Part shown: one piece after another, positions 30,360 to 44,043 of the stretch
Layout of the letters: each line of letters opens with the position of its first letter
Position numbering within the stretch: the first letter of the stretch is position 1
From: Oxalicibacterium solurbis
GTDB taxonomy: Bacteria > Pseudomonadota > Gammaproteobacteria > Burkholderiales > Burkholderiaceae_D
Length of the DNA stretch: 64,000 bases
Direction: 5' to 3'
Assembly: GCF_014635845.1 (NCBI RefSeq)
Contig: NZ_BMDP01000002.1
Coordinates: 1 to 64,000, forward strand
The notes under the pieces: generated by a model
Told to the model about the DNA's origin: nothing
The model's database searches: none
The model's input: only the letters and a program-made list of their open reading frames with translations
Program-made: the position numbers and the translations under genes

Positions 30360-31256
30360 CTAGGCCAGAAATTGAACGATGGTTCGCGTCGCATCGGCGA
30401 TCACATCGTCGCGCGGTTTCGCGGCCTGCTCATGCTGCGTGAAATACAGCACGACGACGATGGGGGCGCGGCCCGGCGGCCACAGTACGCCGATATCGTT
30501 GGTGGTGCCGTAGGAGCCGGTGCCGGTCTTGTCGGCCACGATCCAGTCCGTCGGCACGCCGGCGCGAATGCGCGCGTCGCCAGTGCGGTTCTTCTTCATC
30601 CAGAAGACCAGCTGTTCCCGCTGCAGCGATCCCAGTGCATTGCCCAGCATGAGTTTCTGCAGGGTTTGCACCATCGCGGCCGGCGTCGTCGTATCCTGCG
30701 GATCGCCGGGGATGGCGCTGTTCAGTGCCGGCTCCCAGCGGTCGAGGCGAAATGTCTCGTCGCCGATGGTGCGGGCAAAGGCGGTCACTGCCGCCGTGCC
30801 TCCCAGTTCCTTCATCAGCAGATTGACGGCGGCGTTATCGCTGTATTGCAGCGTGGCGGCACACAGTTCGGCAACCGTCATGCCCTTGCTGATCAGCTTC
30901 TCCGTGATCGGTGCATAGCCGGAGGCATCGGTATCCTGCTTCGTATAGCCGATGCGCTTGCCCAGCAGTTCGCGCTGTTCTTCGCTGTGTTTCAAGATGG
31001 CTGCTGCAGCGATGGTCTTGAAGGTGCTGCAGAACGGAAAGCGTTCGCCGGCACGATATTCCACCGCCTTGCCGTTGCCGGTATCGAAGGCGACGATGCC
31101 GAGGCGGCCATTGGCGGACTGTTCCAGCTTTTCCAGCGCATCCTGCGCCGCGGTCGATGCGGCAAATGCGTGACGGGGCATGCCGGCGAACGGGGTGGTC
31201 ATCGCAATCATCAGCAGGGTGCGGCGCCGTGAGGAAAATCGATCGTCATCCCGCAT
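30360..31256 (-). CDS. Class A beta-lactamase
   Basis: A 298-residue exported enzyme. The N-terminus has a twin-arginine-like [12 protein letters not shown] signal. All class A motifs are present: S77-T-F-K80 (Ambler S70-K73), S139-D-N141 (130-132), E175 in EPALN (166) and K243-T-G245 (234-236). C76 sits at Ambler 69, but position 238 is Gly, so the carbapenemase-type 69-238 disulfide is absent. By alignment R229-R231 places Arg at Ambler 220 with Thr at 244, as in several environmental enzymes. It hydrolyses beta-lactams in the periplasm; spectrum cannot be judged. No ampR-type regulator is adjacent. Confidence 0.95.
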
Positions 31257-31698
31257 AGCCGATTCCCTTCGCCATCATCGCCGCGCACAGCATCATCAAC
31301 AGCAGCAGCGTCAGCTCCACATGAATCAGGATACGCAGCCGGCGGCCTTGTGCATCGCCGAGTTCCGGCACAATACCCTGCTTCAACGGTTTGCCCCACT
31401 TCAGGAACGTGAGCGTCGGATAGATCGAAATCAGGCCGACCGCAATGAACAGCGCCATCTTCGCCATGAAAGGCGTGCTGTGCATGTAATACAGCGGGCC
31501 TTTCTCGAAATACATCACGCGCAATGCGCCGACGATGAGGACGGCACCGGCAAACGCGCCGTAGATCGCGTCGTAGCGCATGATCTTGCGCGCGGATGCC
31601 AGCGTCAGCGGCTGCTTCAGCAGTAGCATCTCGAACGACAGCAACAGCATGATGGCGACGAAGCAGAGGTGATGCAGAAAGGCGACGAAGGCGCTCAT
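31246..31698 (-). CDS. DUF2214 membrane protein
   Basis: A 150-residue protein with four hydrophobic helices ([76 protein letters not shown]) and the conserved [17 protein letters not shown] and [11 protein letters not shown] stretches of the DUF2214 family. Function is unknown. The ATG at 31698 has a GGGAGA ribosome site and starts the first helix. Its end overlaps the beta-lactamase start by 11 nt, so the two are probably co-expressed. Confidence 0.85.
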
Positions 31699-38868: not shown

Positions 38869-39486
38869 TTAGATCGGCATCGCCCGGATGAAATTCATGT
38901 AGTGGATGTGCGCAAACGCCTTGCACGATCGCAGATCGATGCGCGCGAACGGCCGTGGCGCTGATGTCGCAGCATTGCCAGACAGGGCGGCGGTGTACAG
39001 ATCGGCCAGGTATTGCGCATCGCGCAGATTCCGTTTCAATCCACTCAATGCAATGGCAGCCTCCACGCTGCCCAGTTCGTGTACCGGTATTTCCGCCAGC
39101 GTGCCGGCCAGCGCGGTAAAAGTATCCCGGTGATAGGCGATGCGGATGCGCATCCTGTCTTCCGGCGTATCCTCATATCGATCTGCCAGATCGGAAAGCG
39201 CCTTGTGTACCGCCTCCACGATCTGCCGCCATGAAGCCTGCCGGCGTTCCCGCTCCCGTTCTTCCCGCGCCGCCGCCTTGCGCCACAGCGCCGCCACCTG
39301 CCGCTGCCCGATGGTAAAGGCGACCACCATGGCCGCCAGAATCCCGCAGACAAACAGCCAGAGCAGTACGGAACTGTTGGTGTCCGACTGGGCATTGATC
39401 AGCCGGTTGGCGAAGTAGCTGGTGACGAAAGCCGCGAGTGCGGCGACGAGGATGGTGGGGAGGAGTTGCCAGATATTTGTTTTCAT
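38869..39486 (-). CDS. Hypothetical membrane protein
   Basis: A 205-residue protein with two N-terminal hydrophobic helices (WQLLPTILVAALAAFVTSYF and SVLLWLFVCGILAAMVVAFT), then a charged coiled-coil stretch (KAAAREERERERRQASWRQ) and a helical cytoplasmic domain. No family is recognised. It is convergent with the glycosyltransferase gene and divergent from the XRE gene. It marks the left border of the AT-rich island, since its own base composition is like that of the core genome. Confidence 0.65.
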   Translation of the reverse strand: MKTNIWQLLPTILVAALAAFVTSYFANRLINAQSDTNSSVLLWLFVCGILAAMVVAFTIGQRQVAALWRKAAAREERERERRQASWRQIVEAVHKALSDLADRYEDTPEDRMRIRIAYHRDTFTALAGTLAEIPVHELGSVEAAIALSGLKRNLRDAQYLADLYTAALSGNAATSAPRPFARIDLRSCKAFAHIHYMNFIRAMPI

Positions 39487-39542
39487 CTTGAACGGATACG
39501 GTTATAAGTTATGGGCCGTAAATGCCGTGGCTGTTAATGCAT

Positions 39543-39572
39543 TATAGCTCGACTATCTGCGCATGAGTCGAG
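39543..39572 (+). promoter_or_regulatory. Inverted repeat spanning the XRE start codon (putative autoregulatory operator)
   Basis: CTCGACT (39548-39554) and AGTCGAG (39566-39572) are perfect arms with an 11-base spacer, and the ATG of the XRE gene (39563) lies between them. GACT/AGTC cores are typical of boxes recognised by restriction-modification controller proteins. A TATAGC -10-like hexamer at 39543-39548 would start transcription about eight bases before the ATG. No ribosome site is seen, so translation may be leaderless. No clear -35 box. Confidence 0.55.
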
Positions 39573-39808
39573 TATCCGTAAAAGTAGATAAGAACAACGA
39601 TCTGACGAAGATCGGTGCTGCCATTCGCGCAAGGCGATTGGCTATGGAGATGTCACAAGAAGCTTTGGCAGATTACGCGGGAATTGATCGCAGCCATATG
39701 GGAAGAATTGAGAGAGGTGAACGTAATGTTTCTCTTTTAAATATTCTTCGAATTGCAAATGCAATGAATTGCAAAGCCTTAGATTTTTTCCTCGATGCCG
39801 ACATATAA
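39563..39808 (+). CDS. XRE-family regulator, controller-protein-like
   Basis: An 81-residue protein made of one helix-turn-helix: TKIGAAIRARRLAMEMSQEA, then YAGIDRSHMGRIERGERNVS and LLNILRIANAMNCK. This length and layout match the C (controller) proteins of type II restriction-modification systems and small phage repressors. The codon use and AT content differ from neighbours on the left. It converges on the AIPR gene across a long perfect terminator. No methyltransferase gene is nearby, so a classical R-M role is not supported; it may time expression of the facing two-gene unit. Confidence 0.85.
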   Translation: MSRVSVKVDKNNDLTKIGAAIRARRLAMEMSQEALADYAGIDRSHMGRIERGERNVSLLNILRIANAMNCKALDFFLDADI

Positions 39809-39821
39809 CCTAATTTTGATG

Positions 39822-39865
39822 GCGAAATAAAAAAGGGCACCTTTAGGTGCCCTTTTTTATTTCGC
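39822..39865. terminator. Bidirectional terminator with a 20-bp perfect stem
   Basis: Bases 39822-39841 pair perfectly with 39846-39865 around a TTTA loop. The GC core is GGGCACC/GGTGCCC flanked by A6/T6 tracts on both sides, so it works in both directions for the convergent XRE and AIPR genes. The right arm contains the last codons and the stop of the AIPR gene. Confidence 0.95.
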
Positions 39866-41551
39866 GACTTCTTCTCGCAGCTGATCTTTTAAAGCTGATG
39901 AAAATTGAATTCCTTTAGCTACTTTTTCATTTCCACCTAAGCGCTTATATAAGTCAAATACAGAAACGATCGAATGCTCGATTACTTCATCCAACAACAT
40001 ATCTTCCTTTAATTTTGCGATTGCCGCGTTTGATGGATAAACGTTTTGAGTAAGTCTTACCGCAACTGAGTAAAGTACATAAAATTTAATATCGTTTATC
40101 TCAGCAATCGAGTAATCACCATTTGATTTTAAAACTAGCTCGATACGCCGGCCTAAAGACGATACTAAGTAATAGGTAATTAAATCGTTATTTTTATGAA
40201 AAAGCTTTTCATATGAATCATCATCATCAAGCAATGTCGACGGTCGAGCCCGAGCATAATCGGGTTTTTGCATAAGAACTGAAATTAAACATTGCGACAT
40301 AAAAGGGACACTTATGATGTCTTTAGGTTTCTTTCCTTCATTCTTGTAAAAATTTTTTCTTCGATCATAAAAAAGATTTCTCGGTTTCATAAACTCTTCT
40401 ATCTGACGATGTACTTCATCGGTAGCTCGAAGAGATGCTTTAGGTATTGGTGTTTGGCTGTTAGTTGCTCTAATAATTCGATCTCTAGCTTCTTCACTTT
40501 CTGGAACAATGACTCTGACAAGTACATCACGCGTGTCTTTCTTCAGCATTTCAAAGTGAGTCGTAAAGTAACGATAAATCTCAGAAGAGGTTTGTAGGCC
40601 ATTTACTATCTCAGGGTCATGAATGACAAGTTCCTTCCCACCTGGTGCCGCTGCATATGACGCGAGAATCGTAACGCCATTGTTTAGCCACCAAAAATCT
40701 TCAGCATCAGGGTTTTCTAACGTAGATTGAATTTCACCATTAATTGTGGTTTTGCCTTGGTAATCTCGAACATTTGACTCAAATATATGTTTGATAAGCA
40801 TTCCATTTTCGTCAGTAATGAAATCGAAATAGTTCGAAAGACTTACTAAAGCAATGAATACTTGACCCGTTGTTGAGAGAGGATTCTCCGAAAGTTTTAA
40901 GCTAAAAACATCATTTGGTCGATGCTGAAACAGTTGTATCAAGGCTTCGGCGCCGATGAAATTAAAATTGACTTCAGCGACCGGAAGATTTTTTTGCACA
41001 TCCGAAATCAAATCATCTTTTTGTTTTATGACGTTAGGATGTATATCCACGCCTTTAGACGCGTAGGAAAAATTGATTTTTAGCTTTGGAGTTTTAGTTA
41101 TTAGAGCTAGATAGGTTTCTCGGAATAATTCGAAAGCAGAAATCACTTTCTCGTTATAGCGACCGTGATATTGATTAGGGTCAAAATCCAATACAAATAA
41201 ATTAGAACAAAGCCTAGCTAGCTTTAACAATGCGTCTTCGTTAAATGAATTTTCTAGTTTTGATTGAATAATAAAAAATTCTATTTCGGCATTTTTTTTG
41301 TATTTATCCTTTATATTTTCATCGCCTTTTATGAGATCGCCATTAACAAAAAGGTAGATCGCATCAGCTCCGCCATCGTGGCTTTCCCCGCTAATGCCGT
41401 CTTCAATTTCGTCGTAGCTTAACTCGGAAGATTTTAAAATTTGGCTGCACGCGAAGAATTCAAAAAAGCGATTTATAGTAACTTCTTGTGCAAAGTTTTC
41501 GTATTCTTGTTTTACGATTTCGTCGAGAAGAATTTGATTATTTTTTGACAC
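39857..41551 (-). CDS. AIPR-family protein (abortive-infection/phage-resistance-like)
   Basis: A 564-residue protein. The N-terminal 120 residues resemble a PD-(D/E)xK nuclease: D59-G-G-A-D63 followed by EIEFFIIQSK with Q96 and K98. The central part carries AIPR hallmarks: FWWLNNGVTILA (286-297), PEIVNGLQTSS (313-323), ATNSQTPIPK (362-371) and FYDRRKNFYKNEGK (394-407). AIPR proteins are named for their link to abortive infection and occur in defence islands; their biochemistry is poorly known. The GTG at 41551 has an AGGGAAG site, while the longest frame needs TTG at 41599. It overlaps the GIY-YIG gene by 14 nt. DNA is strikingly AT-rich, suggesting transfer. Confidence 0.85.
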   Translation of the reverse strand: MSKNNQILLDEIVKQEYENFAQEVTINRFFEFFACSQILKSSELSYDEIEDGISGESHDGGADAIYLFVNGDLIKGDENIKDKYKKNAEIEFFIIQSKLENSFNEDALLKLARLCSNLFVLDFDPNQYHGRYNEKVISAFELFRETYLALITKTPKLKINFSYASKGVDIHPNVIKQKDDLISDVQKNLPVAEVNFNFIGAEALIQLFQHRPNDVFSLKLSENPLSTTGQVFIALVSLSNYFDFITDENGMLIKHIFESNVRDYQGKTTINGEIQSTLENPDAEDFWWLNNGVTILASYAAAPGGKELVIHDPEIVNGLQTSSEIYRYFTTHFEMLKKDTRDVLVRVIVPESEEARDRIIRATNSQTPIPKASLRATDEVHRQIEEFMKPRNLFYDRRKNFYKNEGKKPKDIISVPFMSQCLISVLMQKPDYARARPSTLLDDDDSYEKLFHKNNDLITYYLVSSLGRRIELVLKSNGDYSIAEINDIKFYVLYSVAVRLTQNVYPSNAAIAKLKEDMLLDEVIEHSIVSVFDLYKRLGGNEKVAKGIQFSSALKDQLREEVAK

Positions 41552-41981
41552 GGTGCTTCCCTTTTTCTGGCGTTTGAGGTTTGCTATAAATCCAATCAAT
41601 CATATTTTTTCTTCTGATTTTCAATAGGGTCTTATGGCGCCTTTGAATATTTAATTTGTTTGCTTGGGTATCGAGGCGATATAAATGCCGGAACAATCCC
41701 TCTAATTCCTCTACCTGCTCTTTTGTAATATTGTCCCAGACTTCAAACACGGAAAAATGTGTCCATAGATTTGATTTCTTTTCTTTATGGCTTCGTAAGC
41801 GTCCTTTTGCACCCGAGTTTTCACCCCGAGCCATTCCTACATAAACTACGTCCATTCGCTTATTTTCTGCCTCCTTATAAAGCACATAAATGCCACGGAT
41901 ACGCGGTGGAATTTTTTCAACGTCGTCAATCGATAAAAATTCAACAGAATTTTTAAAAAGAAAACTGGCACTTTGTGGCAC
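41538..41981 (-). CDS. GIY-YIG nuclease-like protein
   Basis: A 147-residue protein. GIY (30-32) and VYVG (46-49) give the two strands of the GIY-YIG core, followed by GRLRSH (60-65) with the catalytic arginine region and VEELEGLFRHLYR with candidate metal-binding glutamate. A basic C-terminal tail (RRHKTLLKIRRK, KGKHRVKK) could bind DNA. The start is GTG at 41981, seven bases after a GAGG ribosome site. It precedes and overlaps the AIPR gene, so both are translated together. GIY-YIG domains occur in restriction enzymes, homing and repair nucleases; the target here is unknown. Confidence 0.82.
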   Translation of the reverse strand: MPQSASFLFKNSVEFLSIDDVEKIPPRIRGIYVLYKEAENKRMDVVYVGMARGENSGAKGRLRSHKEKKSNLWTHFSVFEVWDNITKEQVEELEGLFRHLYRLDTQANKLNIQRRHKTLLKIRRKNMIDWIYSKPQTPEKGKHRVKK

Positions 41982-42250
41982 TTACATCCCTCTTATTTTT
42001 AGAAAATTTTGGATTTTTCCTTAGTGGTCCTTTAACGTGATTTAGGTTAATAGTGCAGTTGTCTCCATAAAGTAGTTAGATACACATAGTGAAAATTAAA
42101 GCGGTGTGTGAGTTTCGCGAATTTGTATCGGTTTAACTGGTTGGCGTTACATCCTGCCTTTCTCTACTTAAAAGCTATATCCCATATTTGCGGTAGCTAT
42201 TGTTACTTGATGTGAATAAAAACTAGGAAATCTATCTAGCCTCAGAATGT
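41982..42250. other. AT-rich region upstream of the GIY-YIG/AIPR unit
   Basis: About 270 AT-rich bases without a recognisable gene. It must carry the promoter of the two-gene unit, but several A/T-rich hexamers compete and none was chosen. It ends at the glnS terminator, the right border of the island. Confidence 0.5.
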
Positions 42251-42280
42251 AAAAAAAGCCGCTGTCGAGCGGCTTTTTTA
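42251..42280 (-). terminator. Intrinsic terminator of glnS
   Basis: AGCCGCT pairs with AGCGGCT around a GTCG loop, flanked by A7 on the left and T6 on the right. It is 18 bases after the glnS stop on the minus strand and could work in either direction. Confidence 0.92.
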
Positions 42281-42297
42281 TGTAGTAAGGCGGCAAA

Positions 42298-44043
<1,746 letters not shown>

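Follow-up and report, generated by a model that had tools for sequence, protein, structure and literature searches.

An AbiU homologue behind glnS of Oxalicibacterium solurbis, in a probable defence hotspot between core genes

The first 64,000 nucleotides of contig NZ_BMDP01000002.1 of Oxalicibacterium solurbis (assembly GCF_014635845.1), below called the window, contain an AT-rich island of three open genes beside glnS: an XRE regulator on the plus strand, and a GIY-YIG-type protein and an AIPR protein on the minus strand. The glnS 3' end is a core-gene-flanked defence hotspot, as the same core flanks enclose different defence genes in different species of the genus. The island is probably one allele of this hotspot, in which the gene of an AbiU nuclease effector is combined with that of a small, stacked nuclease of the GIY-YIG type. 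An earlier reading of the letters (the first-pass annotation) had proposed a candidate uncharacterised defence system. The foreign composition, the small unit and the defence context agree with that proposal, whereas the AIPR protein can be named and its pairing with the GIY-YIG protein is not fixed.

Results

The glnS site in the genus

The site lies between two walls, which in the window are:

42298..44043, minus strand: glnS, which forms the conserved wall on the left (start MSNDPKNG, chosen by eye)
31246..31698, minus strand: gene of a DUF2214 membrane protein, which forms the far wall; its distance to glnS is 10.6 kb in the window and 1.2-3.1 kb in ten congeners

The congeners were compared at the species level, using one genome per species. 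glnS matches all 13 genomes of the genus (in pieces in two) and DUF2214 is found in 12 of them. The 3' end of glnS was readable in 11 of the 12 congeners, glnS of G004 being in fragments. In ten of these 11 the first kb after glnS is AT-rich, with a GC content of 0.36-0.42 against 0.55-0.59 in the last kb of glnS, and G008 is the sole readable congener without such a stretch. The ten cassettes have one or two genes each, no two of them have the same families, and AIPR occurs in none:

L128: KwaA and KwaB (Kiwa)
L129: AriA/AriB-like (PARIS-like)
L130: D12 methyltransferase and DndB/DpdB-like
L131: Cap15
L132: HEPN and GmrSD_N/NsnA
L133: TIR-STAND
L126: SLFN_AlbA
L125: SIR2-like, under the cut-off
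L134, 3983-5536: DUF6119, no PADLOC match
L127, 5558-6502: sub-threshold TPR, no PADLOC match

The DUF6119 protein of L134 and the protein of L127 are candidate new defence genes.

The cassettes are bounded by the glnS stop codon and an intact DUF2214 gene, with one exception, L126 (genome G009), where a matching DUF2214 fragment of 34 residues with a stop is left behind the SLFN-AlbA cassette. Eight congener regions of 19.9 kb contain 33 AT-rich 500-bp bins in all, and 31 of these overlap the interval from glnS to DUF2214. Identity between genomes drops to chance level at the glnS stop codon: its pairwise mean among 12 genomes is 0.73 over the final 30 nt of glnS, 0.32 in the following bin and 0.25 thereafter. 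At the DUF2214 start it rises from 0.25 to 0.62 (nine genomes); three of the anchors for this second step are misplaced by a codon, an error that could make the step less sharp but not sharper. Because the same site in the congeners holds other defence families, the defence context of the cassette in the window is supported. Our literature searches returned no paper on glnS as a hotspot for defence systems or genomic islands.

Two further observations concern the walls. An ORF (open reading frame) at 30360-31256 of the window adjoins DUF2214, and a similar-looking ORF starts downstream of glnS in L126; by its STFK, SDN and KTG motifs, judged by eye, the window ORF looks like a class A beta-lactamase. 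One congener has a second glnS-like gene, 44% identical (G007:C33:510319-511785).

The glnS site in other genera

From other genera 57 genomes were drawn and the site was fetched in 40, mostly the genomes with the best glnS matches. The first kb after glnS is AT-rich in six of the 40:

L162, L190: GmrSD_N and HEPN (L162 ends 2.1 kb after glnS, and its GC reference is glnS alone)
L166: RelA/SpoT-type protein matching PDC-S33
L187: full PDC-S14 GIY-YIG protein, E-value 4.4e-119
L183, L184: AT-rich, without a match

By eye the genes of L183 resemble exported lipoproteins and not defence genes, which weighs against a site reserved for defence alone. In a seventh of these genomes an ApeA defence gene follows glnS with no GC contrast to its host (L163, 3720-5531).

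Composition and layout of the cassette

The features of the cassette and its immediate neighbour are:

38869..39486, minus strand: 205-aa (amino acid) membrane protein, non-core neighbour, with a homologue between glnS and DUF2214 in congener G008
39548..39572, unstranded: palindrome CTCGACT-N11-AGTCGAG spanning the XRE start codon; one match in the window, none in 100 shuffles
39563..39808, plus strand: XRE regulator, 81 aa, similar to restriction-modification controller (C) proteins; PADLOC Control_protein E 2.4e-18, Pfam HTH_3 E 2.9e-13
39822..39865, unstranded: bidirectional terminator common to XRE and AIPR, 21-bp perfect inverted repeat, from the terminator scan
39857..41551, minus strand: AbiU1-type AIPR protein, 564 aa (PADLOC AbiU, Pfam AIPR), GTG start behind GGGAAG
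40382..40873, minus strand: middle part of AIPR, possible ParB/sulfiredoxin (Srx)-like domain, model residues 228-391, with an IVNGLQT motif
40916..41551, minus strand: N-terminal domain of AIPR, modelled as a PD-(D/E)XK nuclease, model residues 1-213
41538..41981, minus strand: small GIY-YIG-type protein, 147 aa, GTG start behind AGAGGG
41982..42251, minus strand: leader from the glnS terminator to GIY-YIG, with about 315 nt between the glnS stop and the GIY-YIG start
42252..42279, unstranded: glnS terminator, right edge of the cassette, from the repeat and terminator scans

The composition drop described in the first-pass annotation is real: from about 39.5 to 42.25 kb GC is 0.35-0.43 against about 0.60 around it, and it recovers at glnS. 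By gene it is 0.419 for XRE, 0.360 for AIPR and 0.383 for GIY-YIG, and 0.61 for glnS and the 205-aa gene. When the window was divided into non-overlapping 500-bp bins, only the six bins of the island fell below 0.45. The layout also stands as first described: the GIY-YIG and AIPR genes overlap (by 14 nt), and XRE and AIPR converge on the perfect bidirectional terminator. The flanks had been called ordinary core genes, which holds for glnS and fails for the 205-aa gene, as the latter matches 3 of the 13 genus genomes, one of them weakly.

Several features were searched for in and around the cassette. There is no long repeat at its ends among the repeat families listed (20 of 22), no transfer RNA or tmRNA gene beside the glnS site in the window, and no methyltransferase identified at 39.5-42.3 kb by ORFs, Pfam or PADLOC. 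No sigma-70-like promoter was predicted at 39400-42400, the leader included, against 8.4 +/- 3.1 in shuffled sequence. In seven of eight co-directional congener cassettes a simple scan found no terminator between glnS and the first gene, which makes read-through from glnS plausible in these cases. In the window glnS is followed by a terminator and the long gap, with no such promoter predicted.

The low GC content, the lack of a predicted promoter and the sporadic occurrence of AIPR (3 of 13 genus genomes, the two others carrying it elsewhere than at the glnS site) could all be expected if the DNA beside glnS were foreign but neutral, or a mobile element in decay, and had no defence function. 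We regard this as very improbable, since the reading frames are full-length and keep family-invariant residues, and since recognisable defence families occupy the same site in most congeners.

The AIPR protein is an AbiU homologue

The AIPR protein is a full-length homologue of AbiU, judging from its profile matches. PADLOC AbiU matches it over model positions 1-536 of 537 (E 2.3e-197, 655 bits), and Pfam AIPR (PF10592) gives E 5.2e-39 and 135.2 bits against a cut-off of 25. The first-pass annotation had not been able to name the system, and the PADLOC match supplies a name. The start was set by the alignment of relatives together with the upstream GGGAAG. A sequence search against solved structures gave no match for this protein.

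In the genome scan for AIPR 177 relatives were confirmed, of which 80 were kept. Plasmid relatives amount to 117 records, 29 of them covering at least 80% of AIPR; those on lactococcal plasmids are 43% identical. In 96 of 97 loci the AIPR gene has a lower GC content than its flanks (median difference -0.113); low GC is thus a mark of the AIPR family and not of the glnS site alone.

According to the available text of PMC3985639, AbiU was described in Lactococcus and consists there of abiU1 and abiU2; AbiU2 is HEPN-type in the available text of both PMC3985639 and PMC3710099. The cassette resembles this system in the AbiU1 match and differs in its neighbours, as no HEPN-type AbiU2 accompanies the gene: GIY-YIG overlaps AIPR, XRE is the other neighbour, and none of the five proteins scanned has a HEPN match. 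The AIPR core is also found in MzaE of the MZA system, but our protein scores 23.6 bits with the MzaE model against a cut-off of 1050, and the cassette is not assigned to that system.

Domains of the AIPR protein

The N-terminus of AIPR models as a FokI/MspJI-like PD-(D/E)XK nuclease: the predicted fold is that of restriction endonucleases, and the acidic residues and the lysine of the active site are present. Residues D60, D64, Q97 and K99 (DGGxD...QxK) are invariant in 41 sequences; the numbering of the model begins one codon before the GTG. The model is of the alpha/beta type, with strands at 65-70, 90-98, 157-165 and 194-200. HEPN domains are all-helical, and the model argues against HEPN at this position. 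An N-terminal HEPN domain is stated for AIPR in the available text of PMC3506569.

For the middle domain a ParB/Srx-like fold of the DUF262/DndB kind, which goes with a DGQ-type motif, is only a possible lead. Profile comparison of the AIPR core with DUF262 and DndB did not support homology, and Foldseek with both structure models gave no match at E <= 0.001.

The GIY-YIG protein

GIY-YIG proteins are recognised by the GIY and YIG motifs and a downstream Arg and Glu. The 147-aa protein has GIYVLY, VYVG, RLRSH and a downstream Glu, and Y32, Y47, R61, H65 and E94 are common to all four aligned proteins. The motifs speak for the original assignment, whereas the profile support is weak: Pfam GIY_YIG_2 gives E 0.089 and 13.2 bits against a cut-off of 22.4, and PADLOC PDC-S14 matches at E 1.6e-8 over part of the model only. 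PDC-S14 is a candidate defence protein of GIY-YIG plus DUF4357; its GIY-YIG region can be aligned with our protein and it occurs at the glnS site of L187, but the protein in the window lacks the C-terminal DUF4357 part. The solved-structure sequence search returned four weak and unrelated rows only.

The protein is rare. It was found in one of 398 genomes of the phylum (its own) and in two of 300 of the order (its own and one weak match). No relatives were found on plasmids or in phages, and 13 pattern matches in viral contigs gave none that was confirmed; the scan did not extend to the 84,980-species collection.

GIY-YIG and AIPR are not a fixed pair

The first-pass annotation had assumed a fixed GIY-YIG plus AIPR pair and had named a lack of recurrent co-occurrence as its refutation. 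Such a lack is what our sample shows, and within it we reject the fixed pair: AIPR was placed in 99 loci besides the window (96 distinct proteins), and the GIY-YIG gene of the cassette was seen in none, three of the loci having less than 500 bp of upstream DNA. A search of 106 loci for the 147-aa protein returned its own copy (two loci), a weak match in L026, which is not an AIPR locus, and very weak ones in L089 and L104. In L089 (5950-8654) AIPR is followed after 83 nt by a co-directional GIY-YIG/DUF4357 gene. This is the only other adjacency found; the protein is not the same one but of the DUF4357 type, and its gene lies on the opposite side of AIPR from the GIY-YIG gene of the cassette. 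An annotated GIY-YIG gene in L012 is about 3.6 kb from AIPR. No paper joining AIPR with GIY-YIG was found in the literature search.

Should the two proteins nevertheless form an obligate two-nuclease system, a rare and lineage-specific version of AbiU with XRE as controller, the overlap on one strand, the Shine-Dalgarno-like site before each start, the resemblance of XRE to C proteins, the palindrome that covers the XRE start and the L089 arrangement would all fit. We consider this unlikely in view of the 99 loci, the rarity of the GIY-YIG protein and the lack of a palindrome copy before its gene.

AIPR is mostly alone and sometimes inside restriction-modification operons. By an ORF heuristic, 86 of the 99 loci have no close co-directional upstream gene of at least 100 aa. 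The other 13 have one, which is never the GIY-YIG gene of the cassette, and eight of these were examined: HsdS in L057, L061 and L064, DUF4928 in L045 and L048, Vsr in L043, HNH in L072 and AlwI-like in L069. In L057 (4796-10832) AIPR stands between HsdS and HsdR of a type I operon, with a 1-nt overlap on one side and a 23-nt gap on the other. An association of AbiU1/AIPR with restriction-modification is published, as far as the available text of PMC3506569, PMC2292703 and PMC9523054 goes.

The XRE regulator

The palindrome over the XRE start codon is a probable autoregulatory operator, a proposal made from sequence. No copy with up to three mismatches was found before GIY-YIG; two half-sites with a single mismatch occur, one before GIY-YIG and one in the glnS terminator, and control of GIY-YIG by XRE was not accepted on this basis. 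Near other AIPR genes the XRE query gave generic helix-turn-helix matches only (best L105, 9.6e-8; L097, 2.2e-5). In congener G008 an XRE gene that looks different occupies the same position with the same orientation, again adjoining a homologue of the 205-aa gene. The XRE gene may for this reason be part of other cargo at the site rather than of the AbiU unit.

A restriction-modification system with a C protein was also considered and rejected, as no methyltransferase gene was identified in the unit. As for a remnant of such a system, consisting of a C-like controller and nuclease genes after loss of the methyltransferase, the match of XRE to controller proteins, the neighbours of AIPR just listed and the association published in the available text of PMC3506569 and PMC2292703 would be in line with it. 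The lack of any identified methyltransferase, the many AIPR genes without a close upstream partner and the full length of all three ORFs make it improbable.

Discussion

In an allele of the glnS hotspot with stacked nucleases, which is the explanation we favour, the FokI/MspJI-like domain of AbiU would cut nucleic acid, and the cassette would give protection from phage. The AIPR core, possibly a ligand- or nucleotide-sensing domain of the ParB/Srx type, would restrain the nuclease, and the helical C-terminus may help to sense a phage-borne cue. GIY-YIG would be a second, small nuclease encoded on the transcript that also carries AIPR; a stacked or accessory role is more likely for it than that of a partner which AbiU cannot do without. 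XRE would regulate its own gene through the palindrome. Recombination within the conserved genes on either side, glnS and DUF2214, would exchange the cassettes, and no integrase of their own would take part.

A more specific version is possible, and we advance it tentatively: the gap would be a replacement slot for immune genes in this genus that needs no recombinase of its own. Small defence cassettes, exchanged by recombination in the two conserved genes, would fit precisely from the glnS stop to the DUF2214 start, and in most species read-through of the essential glnS would drive their expression. Here it would hold a FokI-like AbiU gated by a ParB/Srx-like sensor, with GIY-YIG as second cutter.

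A possible common layout, a ParB/Srx-like domain coupled to a nuclease, links AIPR to the DUF262-type systems GmrSD, BrxU and SspE. In these the nuclease is a C-terminal HNH, whereas that of AIPR is N-terminal and PD-(D/E)XK-like, and no profile similarity was detected.

The site as a whole resembles cDHS1 and cDHS2 of Pseudomonas aeruginosa, for which the available text of PMC10250203 describes varied defence genes between conserved core genes, without any one mobilising element, and proposes a flank-mediated exchange. It differs in size, as one or two genes in the congeners, with 1.2-3.1 kb from glnS to DUF2214 in ten of them, contrast with medians of 26 and 6 kb in the same source. It also differs in having no tRNA or tmRNA gene beside it in the window, and in that no terminator was found after glnS ahead of seven of the eight co-directional congener cassettes.

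The site may serve as a guide to discovery: almost every species of the genus has its own cassette in the short gap behind glnS, and many of these cassettes are of defence families, so that unknown genes at this position can be ranked as anti-phage candidates. If the gap is indeed a replacement slot, the unmatched genes of L127, L134 (DUF6119) and, in another genus, L184 would be new defence candidates. In the available text of the AIPR and AbiU literature surveyed we found no tested mechanism. The modelled N-terminal PD-(D/E)XK nuclease would provide a concrete and testable one for AbiU/AIPR, a widespread abortive-infection family, and for this branch of AIPR the model speaks against the published HEPN assignment.

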